Virus record (IMG/VR): IMGVR_UViG_3300012350_000002
Coordinates: 1 to 49,166 of that record
DNA length: 49,166 nt
DNA from: a virus
Direction: 5' to 3' (one strand)
Below are positions 5,497 through 44,522 of this stretch, piece by piece (position 1 is the first letter of the stretch; every line of letters begins with the position of its first letter). The position numbers and the translations under genes were made by a program. The notes beneath the pieces were generated by a model. That model searched no databases. It was not told the DNA's origin and saw only the letters and a program-made list of their open reading frames with translations.

Positions 5497-6960
5497 ATGA
5501 GACTTCACCATCAACTTTCAAGACTGCTCGCGGTGCTGGCCGCGGTGCCGATCTGCGTTTACGCGGATGCGCGCAATCCGGTCGTCGCGATCGAGGAGCT
5601 ACGCAACAAGGTTTGCGCGCTCGTCGACCGGGCCAAATCGATCAAGGCTACCGCCGACGCGGACAACCGGCCCATGACGGACGAGGAGAGCCGCGAATTT
5701 GACGCGATTCTCAATGCTGTCGACGCGACCAAGGCTGAGATTGCTCAGTCGGAGCGGCTTCTCGCACTCGACCTGGAGATCTCGGCGCCCGGGCCACGCC
5801 GCACGCAGCCGGCCGACGATCCCGCAGTAGCAGCAGCGCCCCCGCCCGCAGCGGCAGCGCGACCGGGCAATGGTGCGGCGCCCCGAGTGACCGGTGGCAT
5901 GCCGTCGGGCGCTTCCGCCGGGAGCTACGGCTTTCGTTCGCTCGGCGAGTTCGCGCTCTCCGTGAAGAACTCCATTCGTGGGCAGACGGATCCCCGGCTC
6001 ATGTCGGCCGGTCCGACGACCTACGGGCAAGAGGGCACGGGCGAAGACGGCGGCTTTGCCGTGCCGCCCGACATGCGCACCGAAATCCTCTCGAAGGTGA
6101 TGGGGGAAGAAAGCCTTCTTCAGTACACCGACCAGCAGGTCTCGAGCTCGAATCAGCTCACGGTGCCGAAAGACGAAACGACGGCTTGGCAAACATCCGG
6201 CGGTGTCCAGGCGTACTGGGAAAACGAGGCTGCTCAGCTCAAGGCAAGCAAAATGGAGCTCCAATCGGAGACCATCCGCTTGAACAAGCTGACGTCGCTC
6301 ATTCCGGTGACCTCTGAGCTTCTCGAGGACGCAACCGCGCTCGCGTCGTACCTGCGTCGCAAGGCGCCCGAAAAGATGACGTTCAAGATCAACGACGCGC
6401 TCGTGAACGGCGTGGGTAAGGGGCAGCCGCAGGGGATTCTCAACTCGGGGGCCAAGGTCGCTGTGGCCAAGGAGACCGGGCAAACTGACCTCACGGTGAA
6501 CTTTGCCAACATCAACAAGATGTGGGCGAGAATGTACGCGCCGTGCCGTCGCCGATCGATCTGGATCGTCAACCAAGACGTCGAGCCGCAACTCATGGCG
6601 CTCGCGTTTCCGAACGCGGGCTCGGGCACCGTCGTGCCGGTGTACATGCCGCCCGGCGGTCTCTCGGTCGGGCCGTACGCCACGCTTCTCGGCCGGCCCG
6701 TCATCCCCAGCGAAGTCGCCCAGCAACTCGGCTACGAGGGCGATCTCATCCTCGTCGACTTCTCGCAGTACCTCACCGTTGCCAAGGCGGGCGGGCTTCG
6801 CTCGGACATCTCCATTCACCTATGGTTCGACTACGACGTGACGGCCTTCCGTTTCATCATGCGGCTCGGCGGTCAGTGCTGGTGGACCTCGCCCATCAAG
6901 CGCGCGCACGGGACGAACACCCTTTCGACGTGCGTCACCCTCGCCGACCGGCACGCCTAA
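5497..6960 (+). CDS. Major capsid protein (HK97 fold)
   Basis: 487 residues. Residues about 28-95 are a charged helical delta-like domain (EELRNKVCALVDRAKSIK), followed by a Pro/Ala linker and the capsid core from about 140. The core carries the family motif EDGGFAVPPDMRTEI, then LTSLIPVTSELLEDA and NDALVNGVGKGQPQGIL. The start has a GGGGAAAG site upstream. Oddly, the first 24 residues (HQLSRLLAVLAAVPICVYADA) resemble a signal peptide. Since the delta domain is probably cleaved off by the upstream protease, this may not matter. Confidence 0.95.
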   Translation: MRLHHQLSRLLAVLAAVPICVYADARNPVVAIEELRNKVCALVDRAKSIKATADADNRPMTDEESREFDAILNAVDATKAEIAQSERLLALDLEISAPGPRRTQPADDPAVAAAPPPAAAARPGNGAAPRVTGGMPSGASAGSYGFRSLGEFALSVKNSIRGQTDPRLMSAGPTTYGQEGTGEDGGFAVPPDMRTEILSKVMGEESLLQYTDQQVSSSNQLTVPKDETTAWQTSGGVQAYWENEAAQLKASKMELQSETIRLNKLTSLIPVTSELLEDATALASYLRRKAPEKMTFKINDALVNGVGKGQPQGILNSGAKVAVAKETGQTDLTVNFANINKMWARMYAPCRRRSIWIVNQDVEPQLMALAFPNAGSGTVVPVYMPPGGLSVGPYATLLGRPVIPSEVAQQLGYEGDLILVDFSQYLTVAKAGGLRSDISIHLWFDYDVTAFRFIMRLGGQCWWTSPIKRAHGTNTLSTCVTLADRHA

Positions 6961-29428: not shown

Positions 29429-30598
29429 TCATGCCCTTCGCCGCCGAGCCTTCTGTCCCCCCGTATTCCCCCCGAAATGATTCTCTTGAATGTATTTCGA
29501 GTCGGCTTGGAGGGCGCGCTCGGCGGCGCGCTCGGTCGGCTTGGCGTACTTGTTCATGGTCGTGATTTCCTTGTGGCCAAGGAGGTACGCCGTCCCCCGA
29601 AGGTCCGCCGTGCGGTCGACGAGATGCGACCCCCTGGCATGCCGGAGATCGTGCGGTGAGATGCGCGGGATCTTCGCGGCCTTGCACGCGGCGTCGATGT
29701 ACTCGCGGTAATGGTGCTCGCGACGCTTACCGCTCGCCTTGCCAAAAAACGGCTCGAGGTCTTTTGCGCCGACACTATCAAGGATTTTGCGAGCACGTTC
29801 GCTGAGGGGAAGGTCGCGGCCCCAACGCGCCTTGTCCGTCTCGTCTCGCACTCGAAGTTTGCCCGTCTCTTTGATGTAGTCGGCCCCGATGATCGTCGCG
29901 ACCGTTTGCGTTCGGAGGCCCGTCTCATATTCGAACTCGAGTGCTTCGCGGACTCGGAACTTGCGTTTGCCGTTCTTCCCAAGCGACCACGCCGGCAAGT
30001 GTGCGATGAATTGCGCGATCTCACGCTCGCTCACTTCGACAGGACCAGCCTTGTGCGTCGTAGTCTTGTCGGGCGTGCCGGTAACATTCGACGGGGGCGA
30101 CTCGATGACCGGTATCTCGCGGATGAAACCCTTCTCGAAGAGCCACGCGCAGAAGCGTCGCAGTGCGCTGAGCTCCTTGAGGAGCGTCTTCCGTTTGACC
30201 TTCTTGAGTCGCGCTCGAATGTAGTCGTTCACGCTGCGGGTGACGAGCCGATTGAGCGATTCGAAAAACGGCTGCCAATGGGCCGAGATGTACCCGCCGT
30301 AAGTGTCCGCGGTTAGCTCGTCGAGTTCGGCTTCGAGGTCGACGACCCACAACGAGCCGATCTCGTCGAGCGGAGTGCCCGGCTTTGGCGGCCCGATGCG
30401 CGCCTTGAGAACTAAGTCCGGCGACCACCGACCGGAAACAACCTCGGCGTAGATGCGCGCCGCTTCCGCCGAAGCTTCCGTAGGATCTCGTCGGCTCGTG
30501 CTGATCTCTTCACGTCGCCCATTGTGTCGGAACCTGACGAAGTGGATGCCGGTTCGCTCGTGTAATCGGAGTCTCCAACCTTCTGCATGCCGACCCAT
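29429..30598 (-). CDS. int: Tyrosine recombinase integrase
   Basis: 389 residues. An N-terminal arm-binding domain (GIHFVRFRHNGRREEISTS), a core-binding domain (about 75-165) and a catalytic domain with Arg229 in YETGLRTQTV, His316/Arg319 in SPHDLRHARG, His342 in LLGHKEITT and Tyr351 in MNKYAKP are present. All catalytic residues appear intact. Its 3' end abuts the tRNA-Leu attP core. Its first 187 bases overlap the excisionase-like gene in another frame. Confidence 0.96.
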   Translation of the reverse strand: MGRHAEGWRLRLHERTGIHFVRFRHNGRREEISTSRRDPTEASAEAARIYAEVVSGRWSPDLVLKARIGPPKPGTPLDEIGSLWVVDLEAELDELTADTYGGYISAHWQPFFESLNRLVTRSVNDYIRARLKKVKRKTLLKELSALRRFCAWLFEKGFIREIPVIESPPSNVTGTPDKTTTHKAGPVEVSEREIAQFIAHLPAWSLGKNGKRKFRVREALEFEYETGLRTQTVATIIGADYIKETGKLRVRDETDKARWGRDLPLSERARKILDSVGAKDLEPFFGKASGKRREHHYREYIDAACKAAKIPRISPHDLRHARGSHLVDRTADLRGTAYLLGHKEITTMNKYAKPTERAAERALQADSKYIQENHFGGNTGGQKARRRRA

Positions 30599-38361: not shown

Positions 38362-38705
38362 CGCCCTTCCGTCGCTGCGCCGCGTGCGGCAGGCTGCTGC
38401 CTCGGGCGAGCTTTCCTAGGTACGAGACGCGGCGACGGGGCTTACCTGCGCACTACAAACCCACGGTCGCCTTTGGGCCGCGATGTTTCGACTGCGGCGC
38501 GAGGCCACCGCGCACACGCGACAAGCTCGACGAGAAATTCGCGAGCCTCATCCCGCTCGACGGCGTGCCGTGTGACCTCGCGACCATTGCCGATATCGTC
38601 GGATGCTCGCGCCAGCTCATCATCAATATCGAGATGCAAGCGCTTCGCAAGCTCCGCTTTCGGCACCCCCACTTGGCCGCTTGGCTCGAAGGGGACGCGC
38701 GGTGA
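38358..38705 (+). CDS. Zinc-finger plus sigma-70 region-4-like HTH protein
   Basis: 115 residues. An N-terminal zinc site is suggested by CAACGRLLP and CFDCGARP. The C-terminal part, DLATIADIVGCSRQLIINIE with QALRKLRF after it, closely follows the sigma-70 region 4 helix-turn-helix (IAE-hG-SR--I-QIE--AL-KLR). It may direct or modify host RNA polymerase. Overlaps at both ends. Confidence 0.7.
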   Translation: MTPFRRCAACGRLLPRASFPRYETRRRGLPAHYKPTVAFGPRCFDCGARPPRTRDKLDEKFASLIPLDGVPCDLATIADIVGCSRQLIINIEMQALRKLRFRHPHLAAWLEGDAR

Positions 38706-38923
38706 AGAAGCCCCCGCCCGTTCTCCGGTGCCCCAAGTGCCTAGCGTTTCTCGCCGACATTACTGTGCCCAATCCGCCAAAGCACGCGCCCCGACTCGAG
38801 CAGGGGTGCGTCGCGTGCGAGGGGCTGCTCGGGCCGCTCGATGTCGTGGCGCAGTTATTCATCCGGCCTGCGGATCTCGAGTACTGGGAAAAGCTCGGAT
38901 GCTGGAAGGGCGGGACTAAGTGA
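38702..38923 (+). CDS. Small zinc-ribbon protein
   Basis: 73 residues. CPKCLAFLADI and CVACEGLLGPL provide two CxxC pairs 27 residues apart, typical of a zinc ribbon. GTGA overlap at the start, GTGA at the end. Possibly nucleic-acid binding. Confidence 0.65.
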   Translation: MKKPPPVLRCPKCLAFLADITVPNPPKHAPRLEQGCVACEGLLGPLDVVAQLFIRPADLEYWEKLGCWKGGTK

Positions 38924-39255
38924 GCGTCATCTCGCGTCGCGCGGCACGCCGAGAGTTGGAGGCGGCGCGGGCTCTGGCTGGCCAGCGGCAGCATCGATTG
39001 CGATTCGAAAGCATCGGCGACTTGGCACCGATCGACTTGCCCTGCGGCATCGTGATTCAAGTCGAGGTCAAGACGCGCAAGCATCTGCCGAAGCTCCTCA
39101 CGGCCGCGCTCGAGCAGGCGCGGCGCTACGAGCCTTCGGCGGTGCCGGTGGCCGTCATTTCCGAGACGGGTGGGCGCGCGCTTGCGGTCCTTTCTTTGAC
39201 GGCGTTTGCGGCGATCTGCGGGCTCGAGCCGGCGAAGATCGCGGGGGGTGGGTGA
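38920..39255 (+). CDS. PD-(D/E)XK-like nuclease fragment or relative
   Basis: 111 residues. IGDLAPIDLPCGIVIQVEVKTRK with ALEQARRYEPSAVPVAVI looks like a small PD-(D/E)XK-type fold (D..., then E-x-K as VEVKT, then a helix). It is encoded directly before the primase-helicase. Enzyme activity is unproven. Confidence 0.6.
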   Translation: MSVISRRAARRELEAARALAGQRQHRLRFESIGDLAPIDLPCGIVIQVEVKTRKHLPKLLTAALEQARRYEPSAVPVAVISETGGRALAVLSLTAFAAICGLEPAKIAGGG

Positions 39256-41276
39256 TGGTGGGGCCGGCGCCGGAGCGAAACCCGTCGATGTCCATGATGG
39301 CGCTCTCGTACGCCAAGCTCCACTCGTGGATGGTTTTGCCCATTCACCGACCCATCTTCGGCGTCAACGGCTTCGTGCGCTGCTCGTGCGTGGGGTTTCG
39401 CAAGTGCACGAACATTGCGAAGCACCCATGGAGCGAGCACGGCGTCAAGGACGCGAGCCGAAACGAAGAGTGGATCACCGAACGGTGGAAAGACGAGCTT
39501 GCCAACATCGGCGTTGCCTGTGGCCAGGCGAGCGGATTTTGGGCGCTCGACGTCGACCCGTTGAAGGGCGGCGCAGAGTCGCTCGCCGAGCTTGAGGCGA
39601 AGCACGGCAAGCTACCCGATACGGTTGAAGCCATCACGGGCAGCGGCGGCCGTCACATTCTCTTTGCCATGCCGCCGGCGGGTGTGAAGATTCGAAACCG
39701 CGTCGGGTTCGCGCCGGGGCTCGATACGCGAAGCGACGGCGGGTACATCATCGTAGCGCCGTCGCTGCACGAGAGCGGGCGACGGTACGAGTGGGAAGCG
39801 TCGAGTCAGCCCGACGAAACGTCGATCGCATCCGCGCCCGATTGGCTCATCGAGCTCGTGCTTGGTGCGCCAGGGCGCGAGCTTCGCGGCATCGAGGCGT
39901 TTTGCGAAGCGGATTTACCCGAACTCAATTACCGAATCGAGCGGGCCAGAAAATACATCGCCAAGGTGCCGGGCGCGATTGCGGGCAAAGGCGGGCACTT
40001 GCAGACGTGGCTCGTTGCGCTCGTTCTCGCGCGCGGCTTGGCGCTGCCCGAAACCGTCGCGCTCGAGGTGCTTGCGGCCGAATACAACCCGAGGTGTGAG
40101 CCGCGCTGGTCACTCGCGGACCTGGCCCACAAGGTCGCGTCGGCGACCAAGGATGGGCGCCGCCCGCTCGGCTACCTGCTCAATCACCCGATCGGTCATC
40201 CGCTACCGAACGGCGATCCCGACTTCTACGAGCCCGATGTCGAGCGGGTGGCGATCGTCAGCGAGCCGCCGGCCGACAAGCCGCGCATCGTCTGGATTAC
40301 GGGTCCCGACCTCGCTGTAGCACTGCCCCCTACGCCCTGGTGCGTGAAGGATCTGCAGATAGGGCCGGGCCGCCCAACCATGCTGCAGGCGTATGGGGGT
40401 GGAGGAAAAACGCTTATCGCACAGAGTCTCGCGCTGGCGTACGCGTCGGGCGGGCGTGTGTGGGGGCGGTTCGCAACGGGGCGCGGTGGGCACGTCCGTC
40501 ACTTCGACTATGAGCAAGGGCGCCATGCGACGATCCGCCGCTATCAGAGGCTCGCCAAGGGCCTCGAGATCGAACTGCCCCCACTCGGCTCGAAGATTGG
40601 CCTTTGCAACTTCCCGGATCTCTACCTGACCACGGTCGATGCGGAGAGTGTGCTCCTTCACGAACTTGAGCAGGTTGAGCTTGCGATCTTCGACGCGCTA
40701 CGCGGGGCGACACCCGGCATCGACGAGAACGATTCGAAGATCCGCATGTACATCGATCTCTTGATTCGCGTCTCGTCGAAGACTGAGGCGGCTGTCGTCC
40801 TCATCCATCACGCCGGTAAGGCGAAAGATGGACACTCGGACGCGCGCACAAGAGGGCGCGGCTCGTCGGCGATTTTCGACGGGTGCGGCTGCGTCTTCGA
40901 CATTACGGGCGAGAAGGACCCGCGGCTTGTCAAACAAGTGAAGACGCCCGCCGAAGCCGAGGGCGGCAAGATCGAGGAGTTCTATCTGGTCATTGAAGAC
41001 ATACCCGACGGCGATGATCCCTTGGGCGCGGTGCGCGTGCTCGCGAAGTCGAAAGAGGAGATCGTGCCGCGCCGCAGTGGTTCGAAATTCGACAAGCTGA
41101 AAGAGGACATGGTCACCGTCGTGCGCGACAACGCCGGCATCTCGACCCTGAACGCCCTCTGCGCGCGCGTCACCGGAGGCAACAAGACGGTGAAGATGGA
41201 GGCTTGGCATGAACTTGTCCGAGAGGGCCGAATTGTCCAGCCGGGAGGAGAAGGGAGCCCATTTCGTGTCGTCTGA
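39252..41276 (+). CDS. Primase-polymerase / RepA-type helicase fusion
   Basis: 674 residues. Residues about 15-215 form a bifunctional primase-polymerase domain: FWALDVDPLKGG (DxD at 100 and 102), ITGSGGRHILFAM (His135) and DTRSDGGYIIVAPS. From about 375 a RecA-fold helicase follows, with Walker A GGGGKT near 381-386, Walker B LAIFDALRG and VVLIHHAGKAKDGHS. GTG 39252 overlaps the previous stop; ATG 39255 is an alternative with a better site (GGGGGGTGGG). It should prime and unwind at the motif cluster just downstream. Confidence 0.9.
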   Translation: MMVGPAPERNPSMSMMALSYAKLHSWMVLPIHRPIFGVNGFVRCSCVGFRKCTNIAKHPWSEHGVKDASRNEEWITERWKDELANIGVACGQASGFWALDVDPLKGGAESLAELEAKHGKLPDTVEAITGSGGRHILFAMPPAGVKIRNRVGFAPGLDTRSDGGYIIVAPSLHESGRRYEWEASSQPDETSIASAPDWLIELVLGAPGRELRGIEAFCEADLPELNYRIERARKYIAKVPGAIAGKGGHLQTWLVALVLARGLALPETVALEVLAAEYNPRCEPRWSLADLAHKVASATKDGRRPLGYLLNHPIGHPLPNGDPDFYEPDVERVAIVSEPPADKPRIVWITGPDLAVALPPTPWCVKDLQIGPGRPTMLQAYGGGGKTLIAQSLALAYASGGRVWGRFATGRGGHVRHFDYEQGRHATIRRYQRLAKGLEIELPPLGSKIGLCNFPDLYLTTVDAESVLLHELEQVELAIFDALRGATPGIDENDSKIRMYIDLLIRVSSKTEAAVVLIHHAGKAKDGHSDARTRGRGSSAIFDGCGCVFDITGEKDPRLVKQVKTPAEAEGGKIEEFYLVIEDIPDGDDPLGAVRVLAKSKEEIVPRRSGSKFDKLKEDMVTVVRDNAGISTLNALCARVTGGNKTVKMEAWHELVREGRIVQPGGEGSPFRVV

Positions 41277-41292
41277 AATCGCCCAAATAGGC

Positions 41293-41458
41293 GGTCCCAG
41301 AAATCCCGGGACCACCCCTTGTGTCAGGGACCACACGGTCCCGGTGGTCCCGACCGGTCCCGAGACGGTCCCAGGGTGGTCCCGGCGTCGCGGGGACCGG
41401 TCCCAGCTAATCCCCCCCCTTTAGGGGGGATAGCGGGACCACCCCCACCGCGGGGACC
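41293..41458. other. Putative replication origin: 12 GGTCCC/GGGACC motifs
   Basis: The hexamer GGTCCC or its complement occurs at 41293, 41308, 41327, 41337, 41346, 41356, 41367, 41378, 41393, 41399, 41435 and 41453. Between 41327 and 41378 the spacing is 9-11 bases, about one helical turn. The block is non-coding, directly after the primase-helicase gene, where phages often keep iterons. A GC-rich hairpin sits inside it. Confidence 0.7.
41410..41431 (+). terminator. Hairpin inside the motif cluster
   Basis: ATCCCCCC (41410-41417) pairs with GGGGGGAT (41424-41431) around CCTTTA. There is no U-run, so it may be a structural part of the origin instead of a terminator. Confidence 0.45.
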
Positions 41459-41539
41459 GGGGAGAAGAGGTTTAGAAGTGGAAAGTTACACCTAGCCAAA
41501 CGACATCAGACGACACGTACGCAACCACAAGAGGGAACC

Positions 41540-41989
41540 ATGTACGCAACGCAGAAAAAACCAATGACTGAGAATGACCGCGTGAGGCTCGGCGGGGAAC
41601 TCGCCGGGGTGAGCCAAAGGCTCGCGGAAACCAAGTCGGAGAAGTCGGCCGTCGCGAAGGTCTACGCGGGACGCGTTGGGAACTTGGAAAACCAAATCAC
41701 CGAGATCTCGCGCCAGCTCACCGACGGGTTTCTCGAGCTGCGCATCGAAGTCGAAGAAGTCCCCGACGACGCGCGGCAGATCGTTGTGATCGTGCGCACC
41801 GACACGGGCGAAGTGTTCGACTCGCGCCCGATGAATGAGGCGGAGAAAGCCGAGGCAGTGAAGCGCAGGCAAGTGGGCCTCTTCGAAACGCCGAACGACA
41901 CAGAGCCCGCGCCCCCGCTGAGAGTCACCGCCGTTCGCCCGAAAGCCAAGCGCCCGCCCGCCGCGGCGAAGAAAGCGAAGCGCGCGTGA
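41540..41989 (+). CDS. Hypothetical coiled-coil protein
   Basis: 149 residues. The N-terminal half is helical (LGGELAGVSQRLAETKSEKSA, NLENQITEISRQLTDGF); the middle has strands (ARQIVVIVRTDTGEVFDSRP); the end is Lys/Ala/Pro-rich like a DNA-binding tail. GAGGGAACC precedes the ATG. First gene after the origin-like block. Confidence 0.65.
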   Translation: MYATQKKPMTENDRVRLGGELAGVSQRLAETKSEKSAVAKVYAGRVGNLENQITEISRQLTDGFLELRIEVEEVPDDARQIVVIVRTDTGEVFDSRPMNEAEKAEAVKRRQVGLFETPNDTEPAPPLRVTAVRPKAKRPPAAAKKAKRA

Positions 41990-42282
41990 TGGCGGCTCCG
42001 CCCCCGCTCCCGACCCGGCTCCTCGCCCGTTGCCGCGGGTGCGGGGCGAACATCTACTGGGCAGAGTCAACGCGGGGCAAGGCGATACCCTTGGATGCGG
42101 AGCCGGCGGAGGGCGGTAACCTCGTCCTGCAGCGGCGACTCGACGGGGTGCTCGTTGCGATGGTCGTCAAGGCGGACGAGATGCCGGGCGCGCCGCGCTT
42201 CGTCTCGCACTTCTCGACGTGCGTGGACGCGGCGAAGTTTCGCCGAGCTCGAAAGCCTTCGGGCGCGATGAGGCTCCGATGA
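41986..42282 (+). CDS. Zinc-finger-like conserved phage protein
   Basis: 98 residues. CRGCGANIYWAESTRGKAIP, DAEPAEGGNLVL and VSHFSTCVDAAKFR match a small family common in phages, in which the CxxC and the later His/Cys probably bind zinc. Start at GTG 41986 (GTGA overlap) or ATG 41989. Confidence 0.78.
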   Translation: MMAAPPPLPTRLLARCRGCGANIYWAESTRGKAIPLDAEPAEGGNLVLQRRLDGVLVAMVVKADEMPGAPRFVSHFSTCVDAAKFRRARKPSGAMRLR

Positions 42283-42677
42283 AGCCGACTCTCACGCCCA
42301 AGCTCGAGGAGCAGATCCGCCAGCGCGTCGCGGCGCAAGCGGAGGCGGGGATGGAGAGCGTATGCGGCAAGCAACGCGCGGCGCTGCTCGCTGAGCTCGA
42401 CGCGGTGCGAGCGGAGCTTGCAATAGCGATCGAGCAATACGATCACATGAAGGACTCTCGCGACGCGGCCAAGGCGGAGCGTGACGAAGAGGCGAGGGAA
42501 TCGGCGCGCTACCTCCACGACATCACGAAACTGAAGGCCCGATACGTCACGCTGCTCGCGGCGGCGGAACAAATTCAACACGTCTTCGGGCGCGACGGGT
42601 CGATGGACTTGGAAGACGGAGCGCTCAGCGGACTTTATGACGCCATCCAAGCCACAGAGCGCAAGGAGAAGCCGTGA
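42279..42677 (+). CDS. Hypothetical helical protein
   Basis: 132 residues, helical and charged (QRAALLAELDAVRAELAIAI, MKDSRDAAKAERDEEARES). Overlaps both neighbours. No family recognised. Confidence 0.65.
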   Translation: MKPTLTPKLEEQIRQRVAAQAEAGMESVCGKQRAALLAELDAVRAELAIAIEQYDHMKDSRDAAKAERDEEARESARYLHDITKLKARYVTLLAAAEQIQHVFGRDGSMDLEDGALSGLYDAIQATERKEKP

Positions 42678-42832
42678 AGCTCCTCGGGTGGCTCGTCGCG
42701 AGGCTCGATTGCTGGATGCACGGGCACGCGCCCCATCTCCTCGCGAGCGGAAAGAATCATTGGGAACTGCGCTGCCGCGTCTGCGGTGCAAAGACTCCCG
42801 CGATCTCGGCGAGGGCGGGGTGGAAGCCGTGA
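42674..42832 (+). CDS. 52-residue small protein with CxxC
   Basis: It starts at GTG 42674 in a GTGA overlap and ends in a GTGA overlap with the resolvase gene. The sequence holds WLVARLDCWMHGH and LRCRVCGAK, a possible metal site. The overlaps at both ends and phage-like codon use support a real gene. Confidence 0.6.
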   Translation: MKLLGWLVARLDCWMHGHAPHLLASGKNHWELRCRVCGAKTPAISARAGWKP

Positions 42833-43293
42833 AGCGTGTACTCGGTATCGACCCCGGCACGAGCTCGCACGGGTGGGCGCTCCTCGACCTGTCGACGCCG
42901 GCGCGGCCGCTCTACCTCGAAGGGGGGCGGACAGCGGACGTGCGGCCGCTCCTCGCGAGAGAGGGGCTCGGCATGGTCGCTGTCGAGCGGGCGGTGGCGC
43001 TGTGGAAGCCGGAGGCCAACGTGCACGCGATGTCGACCGCTTGGGAAGGCGGGTGGATCGCGGGGTTCGCGGCAGCGCGAGGGCACCGCGTCGTGTGGAT
43101 GGGCGCCACCGAGTGGCGAACTGCACTCGTCGGGCACTCGGAGAAGGGTGAGAATGTCGACGGCAAGGTGAAGACTGCCCTCCTCATGTTCGTGCGCGAG
43201 TTTCCCGCTCGCTCGAGCGTGCACCTTCGCGACGCCGCCGGCGTTGCGTGCGTTGCCGCTCGCGATTGGCGACAGCGCCTCGCCGTTCGGTGA
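42829..43293 (+). CDS. RuvC-like Holliday junction resolvase
   Basis: 154 residues. RVLGIDPGTSSHGWALLD carries the first catalytic Asp; MVAVERAV gives the second acidic residue; VHLRDAAGVACVAARDW gives the last Asp. This is the RuvC/RNase H order. It probably resolves branched DNA before packaging. Confidence 0.87.
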   Translation: MKRVLGIDPGTSSHGWALLDLSTPARPLYLEGGRTADVRPLLAREGLGMVAVERAVALWKPEANVHAMSTAWEGGWIAGFAAARGHRVVWMGATEWRTALVGHSEKGENVDGKVKTALLMFVREFPARSSVHLRDAAGVACVAARDWRQRLAVR

Positions 43294-43296
43294 GCG

Positions 43297-43839
43297 ATGA
43301 CTGTCCAATTCTCGCTCACTCCAACGGGCTATCGCGACATCGGGCTTGCCCATTGGCTCTTAGCCGAGAGCGGTGCGTGGGACAGGCTAGGGGCTAAGCT
43401 CGCCGACGGGCACTACTCCAGGCGCACGGTAGGAGCGCGGCAATTCATGCCGCCGGGGCAGCGCTTCGTCCTTGTGTCGCGTGACCTTCGAAACGTATGG
43501 GGCTGGTATCGGCCCGACCCAAAGAGCGGCGTCGTGGCGCTGAATGGGCTCGACGGCTGGACGTGCGGAATCTTTCGACGAACGGGCGGGGTGCTCGCAA
43601 GCGAACTCGTCCTCGATGCCGAGCTGGCCATCGGGCGACTCGGTTACGATTGTGGTCCTGATGGGCTACTCACCTATATCCACGACGCAAAGGTGAAGAG
43701 TGTGAACGCGGGCTATTGCTACAAGGTTGCCGTCTGGCACATTGCTGGACGATGCGCCGAATGCAAGGCAATGGCGCCGAGGAGCGCGGACAATCGGAAG
43801 ACGCTCCTGCACAAGTCTTTCATGCTCGCCGGACGCTGA
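43297..43839 (+). CDS. Conserved phage protein, GNAT/Mom-like pattern
   Basis: 180 residues. HYSRRTVGARQFMPPGQRFVL, CGIFRRTGGVLASELVLDAE, DGLLTYIHDAKVKSVNAGY and CYKVAVWH are conserved in a widespread phage family. The arrangement resembles the GNAT-like fold of Mom-type DNA modification proteins, but this is a tentative reading. Last gene before a long region without clear genes. Confidence 0.72.
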   Translation: MTVQFSLTPTGYRDIGLAHWLLAESGAWDRLGAKLADGHYSRRTVGARQFMPPGQRFVLVSRDLRNVWGWYRPDPKSGVVALNGLDGWTCGIFRRTGGVLASELVLDAELAIGRLGYDCGPDGLLTYIHDAKVKSVNAGYCYKVAVWHIAGRCAECKAMAPRSADNRKTLLHKSFMLAGR

Positions 43840-44522
43840 GGGAGGGGGTTGGGGTCCCCCCGTTGGGTCCCCCCCGAATGCAAATATCGGGTAGGTGCCT
43901 TTTCTGGACGAGGGGGGGAAGCGGCGCGGCCGTTAAGCGAGAGCGGCTGGCGAAGCTTGCTGGAGCGCGACGGTGCCCACGGAGGCCGATGAATCCCGTG
44001 GGCCAAGCGGCGTCGCCCCGCACTCCCTCACGCGGATCAATGTCGGGGAGCGGCTCTCATCCCGCTTTCCCCCGGCTCCTCGCTCGGCTTTGGAAGTTCT
44101 CATCGCCGCCTATCGTCGCACTAGCGCGATTGTGAGGCAAACAGCGGGGATTGTACCGGGCGTTCGCGAGGGAATCGTGGGCAGAGTCAGCGGCGATTGC
44201 GGTGAGACTTCTGTGGGGAGGCTCCAGCGTTCGGCGGGGTGAGGCGTTTCGATCGATCGCCTGGGCGGGCGGCCTCAAATTTGGCGCCCGATTATTCCGG
44301 GGGCAAAAGCTGAAAAACGCCTAGCTATTTTGTTTTTAGAGCGAAAACCTCGGGAAAACGGCGATCTCGTAACCCCGCGGACCCTGGTCGCGAGGCACTG
44401 AACAGAGGGCCTAAGTGCCCGGATTCGCGCGCGTTTTTGACCTTTGCCTCCCCCCTCGCCGCGCTCGGGCCCGGGAAGAGCACGGCCCATCGGGGGCTAA
44501 CCCCTCGGATGCTGGTGAGCTC
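43840..44522. other. Long region without a convincing gene; possible regulatory DNA
   Basis: No frame here has a good start and phage-like codon use. It holds G/C runs GGGGTCCCCCC at 43851-43861 and GTCCCCCCC at 43867-43875, a perfect 8-bp inverted repeat GCCCACGG/CCGTGGGC (43975-43982 and 43996-44003), and an AT-rich island around 44312-44347 (AAAACGCCTAGCTATTTTG) in otherwise GC-rich DNA. The AT-rich island is the best place for a promoter for the right-arm genes. Confidence 0.4.

Follow-up and report, generated by a model that had tools for sequence, protein, structure and literature searches.

What does a dense cluster of one short word do directly behind a primase-helicase gene of a virus? 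The question is raised by the IMG/VR virus record IMGVR_UViG_3300012350_000002, which was analysed as a whole and is called the window in the following (49,166 bases). Its virion genes comprise terminase and portal (Pfam) as well as tape measure, and since an integrase gene is present (29429–30598, minus strand), the window probably represents a tailed temperate phage. A sequence-only reading of this DNA had called the cluster a likely origin, and our sequence comparison supports this proposal: With a probability of about 0.82, the array acts in cis within the replicon of the phage itself, as an iteron-type replication origin that directly follows its initiator gene. We consider this the best-supported reading because the gene upstream is initiator-like, relatives carry drifted repeats, the layout recurs in unrelated loci, and tested precedents exist.

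The hexamer count recovered all twelve copies of GGTCCC/GGGACC that had been claimed for these 166 bases in both orientations, and they form an unstranded array at 41293–41458. On the plus strand, GGTCCC is found at 41293–41298 (iteron 1), 41337–41342, 41346–41351, 41356–41361, 41367–41372, and 41378–41383 (iterons 4 to 8) as well as 41399–41404 (iteron 10); on the minus strand, seen as GGGACC, it is found at 41308–41313 and 41327–41332 (iterons 2 and 3), 41393–41398 (iteron 9), 41435–41440 (iteron 11), and 41453–41458 (iteron 12). The resulting start-to-start spacings are 15, 19, 10, 9, 10, 11, 11, 15, 6, 36, and 18 bp. As the sequence-only reading had stated, six successive sites lie 9–11 bases apart: This core runs from iteron 3 at 41327 to iteron 8 at 41378 with gaps of 10, 9, 10, 11, and 11 bp, and its first site is oriented opposite to the other five. 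The geometry of binding on one face of the DNA, which had been ascribed to the cluster, applies to the core and to the site at 41399, but not to the outer sites at 41293, 41308, 41393, 41435, and in part 41453, which are out of helical phase. A flank check further revealed that the base 5′ of GGTCCC is a pyrimidine in all twelve units (C in seven, T in five), so that the true unit is YGGTCCC/GGGACCR. The first unit begins 17 bp past the stop codon of the primase-helicase gene, as "just after" this gene had implied, and the array is non-coding; it lies between the upstream gene, with its end at 41276, and the next likely gene, with its start at 41540.

Such a density is indeed far above chance. 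The next densest hexamer of the window, on either strand, reaches at most 7 copies per 170 bp, no hexamer exceeded 8 copies when 60 second-order Markov genomes were simulated, and 3000 local first-order shuffles contained the hexamer 1.5 times on average and 7 times at most. Counting the word in the rest of the genome, which had been proposed as a check, yielded 25 copies outside the array at a whole-window expectation of 28; hence, the hexamer is not dense elsewhere in the window.

We then turn from the repeats to the protein that might read them. The candidate initiator (39276–41276, plus strand) lies in a frame that is open from 38841 and has an ATG at 39255 as candidate start. According to Pfam, a PDB profile search, and AlphaFold, it joins a Prim-Pol domain (PF09250), a RepA-type hexameric helicase (AAA_25, PF13481), and a C-terminal winged-helix-like domain (about 41082–41273). 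The profile search, which was based on 29 homologues, returned RepA of RSF1010 as best match (1g8y, E=1.5e-33), and the structure model agrees with the fold of the same protein (TMt 0.72). The last about 65 residues are predicted by AlphaFold to adopt the order H-H-H-strand-strand with a pLDDT of about 80, so that the C-terminus is modelled as a winged helix from 29 sequences; modelled alone, it gave a poor result, and a PDB sequence search with it returned no match.

Several further elements lie within or around the array. The separator of iterons 10 and 11 at 41405–41434 (about 60% GC) is formed by a perfect G/C hairpin, ATCCCCCCCCTTTAGGGGGGAT, at 41410–41431, and it is unclear whether this hairpin is a terminator of the primase operon or a part of the origin. 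The array is bracketed by a perfect 12-bp inverted repeat, whose left arm CGTGTCGTCTGA (41265–41276, plus strand) holds the stop codon of the primase and whose right arm TCAGACGACACG is located at 41506–41517 on the minus strand. Over a longer stretch, the arms match at 15 of 17 positions, and a 17-nt inverted repeat of this quality appeared in none of 400 shuffles; it is not built of iterons, unlike the inverted repeats at many other array loci. Adjoining the array, a stretch of 60 bp (41465–41524) has a G+C content of 45% in a genome of about 63–64%, which is weak evidence for a possible melting region, as stretches equally low in G+C are found in 18% of 500-bp windows. A clear AT-rich melting region was not found inside the array, nor did GC skew switch clearly at this place, and the search for tRNAs found none. 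Within 4 kb of the array there is no DnaA box, even when one mismatch is allowed; initiator-helicase systems are not known to need such boxes.

The closest relatives of the helicase and C-terminal part are four proteins with 35–39% identity, all from Myxococcota. When 195 genomes of Myxococcota were searched with this part, 4 had matches, whereas 385 genomes of Alphaproteobacteria had none, and a profile of the window and its four relatives matched none of 247 Acidobacteriota and none of 369 Gammaproteobacteria genomes; a protein scan of IMG/VR contained no direct relatives of the window protein or of the Myxococcota relative L451. Since relatives occur only in Myxococcota among the searched groups, these results suggest a myxobacterium as host of the phage.

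In all four relatives, repeats lie right behind the stop codon, at the same place as the array of the window. Three of them (L450/L454, L451/L455, and L452/L456) carry 8–10 copies of GGGAACC/GGTTCCC in both orientations directly 3′ of the gene, with runs spaced by 11, 10, and 9 bp in two cases and by 10, 10, and 8 bp in the third, and these arrays are the strongest hexamer cluster within their 5–15 kb (L454, L455, and L456). The fourth (L449/L453) contains GGTCCCgccttaagggcgGGGACC and GGATCC repeats, a weaker mixed set of GGTCCC/GGGACC and GGATCC that ranks below the strongest cluster of its region. From one unit to another, the difference is a single base: GGGA-CC, GGGAACC, and GGGATCC. In two of the three GGGAACC relatives, a RepB-type primase domain takes the place of Prim-Pol. 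The primase is thus exchanged, whereas the helicase, the C-terminus, and the array remain associated, and this comparison suggests that the putative reader of the array is the helicase/winged-helix half.

Related units are also found outside of this group. Rhizobial prophages and Rhizobium phage 16-3 encode C-termini similar to that of the window protein, and their units are GGGACAA (L322, L429, and L440), CCGGACA (L352), and CGTGACA (phage 16-3). The p101 protein of phage 16-3 (L279) is the closest annotated homologue, with 31% identity in a pairwise alignment. Right after p101, 14–15 copies of CGTGACA in both orientations occupy 5508–5865 of this locus; the array bears no annotation in the phage record (DQ500118.1), and by its sequence and position we regard it as a candidate origin of this cultured phage. 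The homologous gene followed by a repeat array in both orientations is what phage 16-3 shares with the window, whereas the unit differs from GGTCCC/GGGACC.

Is it then the word or its position that recurs? We scanned IMG/VR for GGTCCC triplets with a period of 10–11 bp and used the reversed word CCCTGG (CCAGGG) as control, which gave 75 stretches for the former and 94 for the latter. In unrelated contigs, arrays of GGTCCC immediately follow genes for AAA_25, Prim-Pol, Toprim, and VapE, and arrays of the control word follow right behind VapE-like, DUF5906, PriCT, and AAA_25 genes, too; as the reversed word shows the same layout, the rule is the position and not the word. The idea that GGTCCC marks origins in general was therefore rejected, given that its reverse matches as often and that the motif-blind survey described below yields many other words. 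Coding repeats were likewise discarded as an explanation for the window: Many of the IMG/VR matches have spacings divisible by three or fall within ORFs, which is expected of repetitive proteins, and neither is true of the array.

For the motif-blind survey, 160 Prim-Pol loci were collected by protein query only and reduced to 99 at 70% identity, of which 68 independent loci with a complete long Prim-Pol-helicase ORF formed the final set. In 28 of these 68, the strongest 6-mer cluster of the locus is located 0–350 bp past the stop codon, where 2.7 would be expected for uniform position; among strong clusters, the proportion rises to 19 of 27 (1.05 expected). Other large ORFs of the same loci are followed by such a cluster in 3 of 120 cases, and the result remained unchanged with other word lengths and windows. 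The units are diverse (GTGGAG, TTGTCC, CAACCT, GGTAGA, CAGACG, TAGGAA, and others), their spacing is often 8–12 bp, and their orientations are usually mixed. Behind short Prim-Pol ORFs, the cluster often appears about 1.2–2.3 kb further on, where it plausibly follows a separate helicase gene. In the remaining 40 of the 68 loci, no such array is present 0–350 bp past the stop; among them is a large clade of Prim-Pol-AAA_25 prophages (such as L396–L446), which has the same domain order without a short-repeat array behind the gene. The layout is therefore common but not universal, and it is no necessity of the gene family.

Known replicons provide the frame for these observations. In SaPIs, Rep uses its C-terminal domain on an origin whose iterons directly follow the rep gene, according to the account of Ubeda 2007 given in PMC7581432; in SCCmec, the repeats bound by Cch2 are situated downstream of its operon (PMC7581432), and the pri-rep-ori segment of PICIs drives plasmid replication (PMC6092414). 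With SaPIs and PICIs the window shares iterons immediately 3′ of a primase-helicase gene and an initiator with a C-terminal DNA-binding part, which is predicted in the window protein. Unlike them, it is a tailed and probably temperate phage that encodes its own terminase, portal, and tape measure proteins, it has a RepA-type (RecA-fold) helicase, and it differs in the organization of the repeats: PICIs have an AT-rich middle that separates two iteron sets, whereas the twelve hexamers have none. Because of these virion genes, which such satellites lack, and the missing AT-rich middle, the window is not a PICI. The RSF1010 replicon consists of the RepA helicase, the RepB′ primase, and the iteron binder RepC (PMC4234260), and thus resembles the window in its RepA-type hexameric helicase, its own primase, and its iteron origin, the latter being a candidate in our case. 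In the window, however, a single protein unites the primase and the helicase with the presumed reader of the iterons, the units are hexamers, and the candidate origin directly follows the gene; with regard to a separate RepC-type protein, the small downstream ORFs have no Pfam or NCBIfam match. In the window, enzymes like those of RSF1010 are thus joined in one polypeptide, and the candidate origin is placed as in SaPIs.

Single polypeptides of comparable composition are known as well. The alpha protein of phage P4 comprises a primase, a helicase, and a winged helix that binds origin repeats (PMC4234260); the window protein has the same three parts, the winged helix being modelled, but its primase is of the Prim-Pol type (PF09250) and not of the Toprim type, and the repeats differ. 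Because of the different primase, it is not a P4-type initiator. The orf904 protein of pRN1 is also a Prim-Pol fused to a helicase and a winged helix, and in pRN1 the region directly downstream is essential; its helicase, however, belongs to SF3, and this region forms a 100-nt stem-loop in place of iterons (PMC4234260). By domain make-up, the PrimQH proteins (PMC5862659) share with the window protein a primase, a RepA/DnaB-type or other ATPase, and a C-terminal winged helix, for which the PrimQH authors suggested that it might recognise origins. The passages on PrimQH map no origin sites.

The array could also serve transcription: It would then be an operator or incompatibility region by which the same protein or another regulator controls the primase operon or the genes from 41540 onward, without being a start of replication. 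Iterons near initiator genes, as is generally known from plasmids, often regulate the gene or the copy number too, and several small genes, none with a Pfam or NCBIfam match, lie directly downstream of the array. Nevertheless, we regard this as unlikely, as the array comes after and not before its likely partner gene, both here and in the Myxococcota relatives as well as in 28 of the 68 surveyed loci, and as this region is the origin in tested systems of the same layout (PMC6092414, PMC7581432). No sigma-70-type promoter was predicted in 38700–43900, which argues weakly in the same direction, because the promoter type of the host may differ from this consensus.

A function as structured nucleic acid seems quite improbable to us. 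Here, hexamers and hairpin would act as a terminator or stem-loop in RNA or single-stranded DNA at the end of the transcript, or as a stem-loop origin such as the essential 100-nt element after the Prim-Pol gene of pRN1 (PMC4234260). The strand at the array does fold better than shuffles (z −3.8), and the hairpin at 41410–41431 is perfect. But the excess of folding follows from the presence of the hexamer in both orientations, there is no single 100-nt stem, and many arrays of other loci are mostly direct repeats of one orientation that do not fold (all plus in L355; also L368 and L350); the hairpin has no T tract and was not called a terminator by prediction, and there is no match in Rfam. 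That the array is a partition site or binds a host protein, unrelated to the primase-helicase, is hardly credible: Short repeat arrays are generally known to serve as centromeres, too, but the unit varies between phages while the type of neighbouring gene is constant, although a site for a host protein should keep its sequence. Moreover, no partition genes were identified among the scanned neighbours, most of which have no family match.

If the array is an iteron origin, how might it work? The C-terminal winged helix of the Prim-Pol-RepA-type protein would bind a single YGGTCCC in either orientation, and the core units, being one helical turn apart, would bring several monomers together on the same side of the helix, where they could nucleate helicase rings. 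Within the array or next to it, and perhaps at 41465–41524 where G+C is low, the DNA would then open, the helicase would be loaded, the Prim-Pol domain would lay the first primers, and the replisome of the host or the phage would take over. We infer the steps of binding, ring loading, and priming from known systems; melting is the weakest part of this proposal.

Beyond the single locus, we somewhat favour the view that a fast-drifting array behind an initiator is a portable initiator-origin cassette of phages and prophages with Prim-Pol or related primase-helicases: The helicase/winged-helix half and the array would travel together and drift in step, with an exchangeable primase. The units that we set out as drifting are GGGACC, GGGAACC, and GGATCC in the Myxococcota group and GGGACAA, CCGGACA, and CGTGACA in the rhizobial group. 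By comparison, the array of the window belongs to a known kind, an iteron origin beside its putative initiator, and the broader recurrence of the layout is the more interesting result. According to PMC6092414, no known replicon besides PICIs has this layout, a statement that, within the open-access literature compared, the pattern of our survey appears to contradict. For a related Prim-Pol phage, the outcome of a search for iterons was considered negative (PMC4234260); our survey suggests that both views were too narrow. If the cassette exists, tailed phages would commonly have a layout that had been ascribed to PICIs alone. The origins of most uncultured phages are unknown, and if the arrays are origins, they could be read from the sequence for many phages, while the pairs of C-terminal domain and unit would constitute natural data on how winged helices choose their DNA.

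Three minor observations complete the picture. Two further copies of GGTCCC, 13 bp apart, are found at 43853–43871 directly 3′ of an ORF ending at 43839 and may be due to chance. Several arrays contain, or have at their edge, a G/C hairpin whose short loop is T/A-rich (CCCTTTAGGG or CCTAAGG type), and comparable hairpins between iterons were seen by eye in L440, L352, L319, phage 16-3 (L279), and L449–L452. In three further loci (L125, L135, and L154), GGGACC units with the flank tcgga lie about 30–280 bp after an AAA_25 gene, a separate copy of GGTCCCTCCGAC is found some 170 bp beyond these units, with TTATCCACA-like words in between; these loci possibly represent an array with DnaA boxes.
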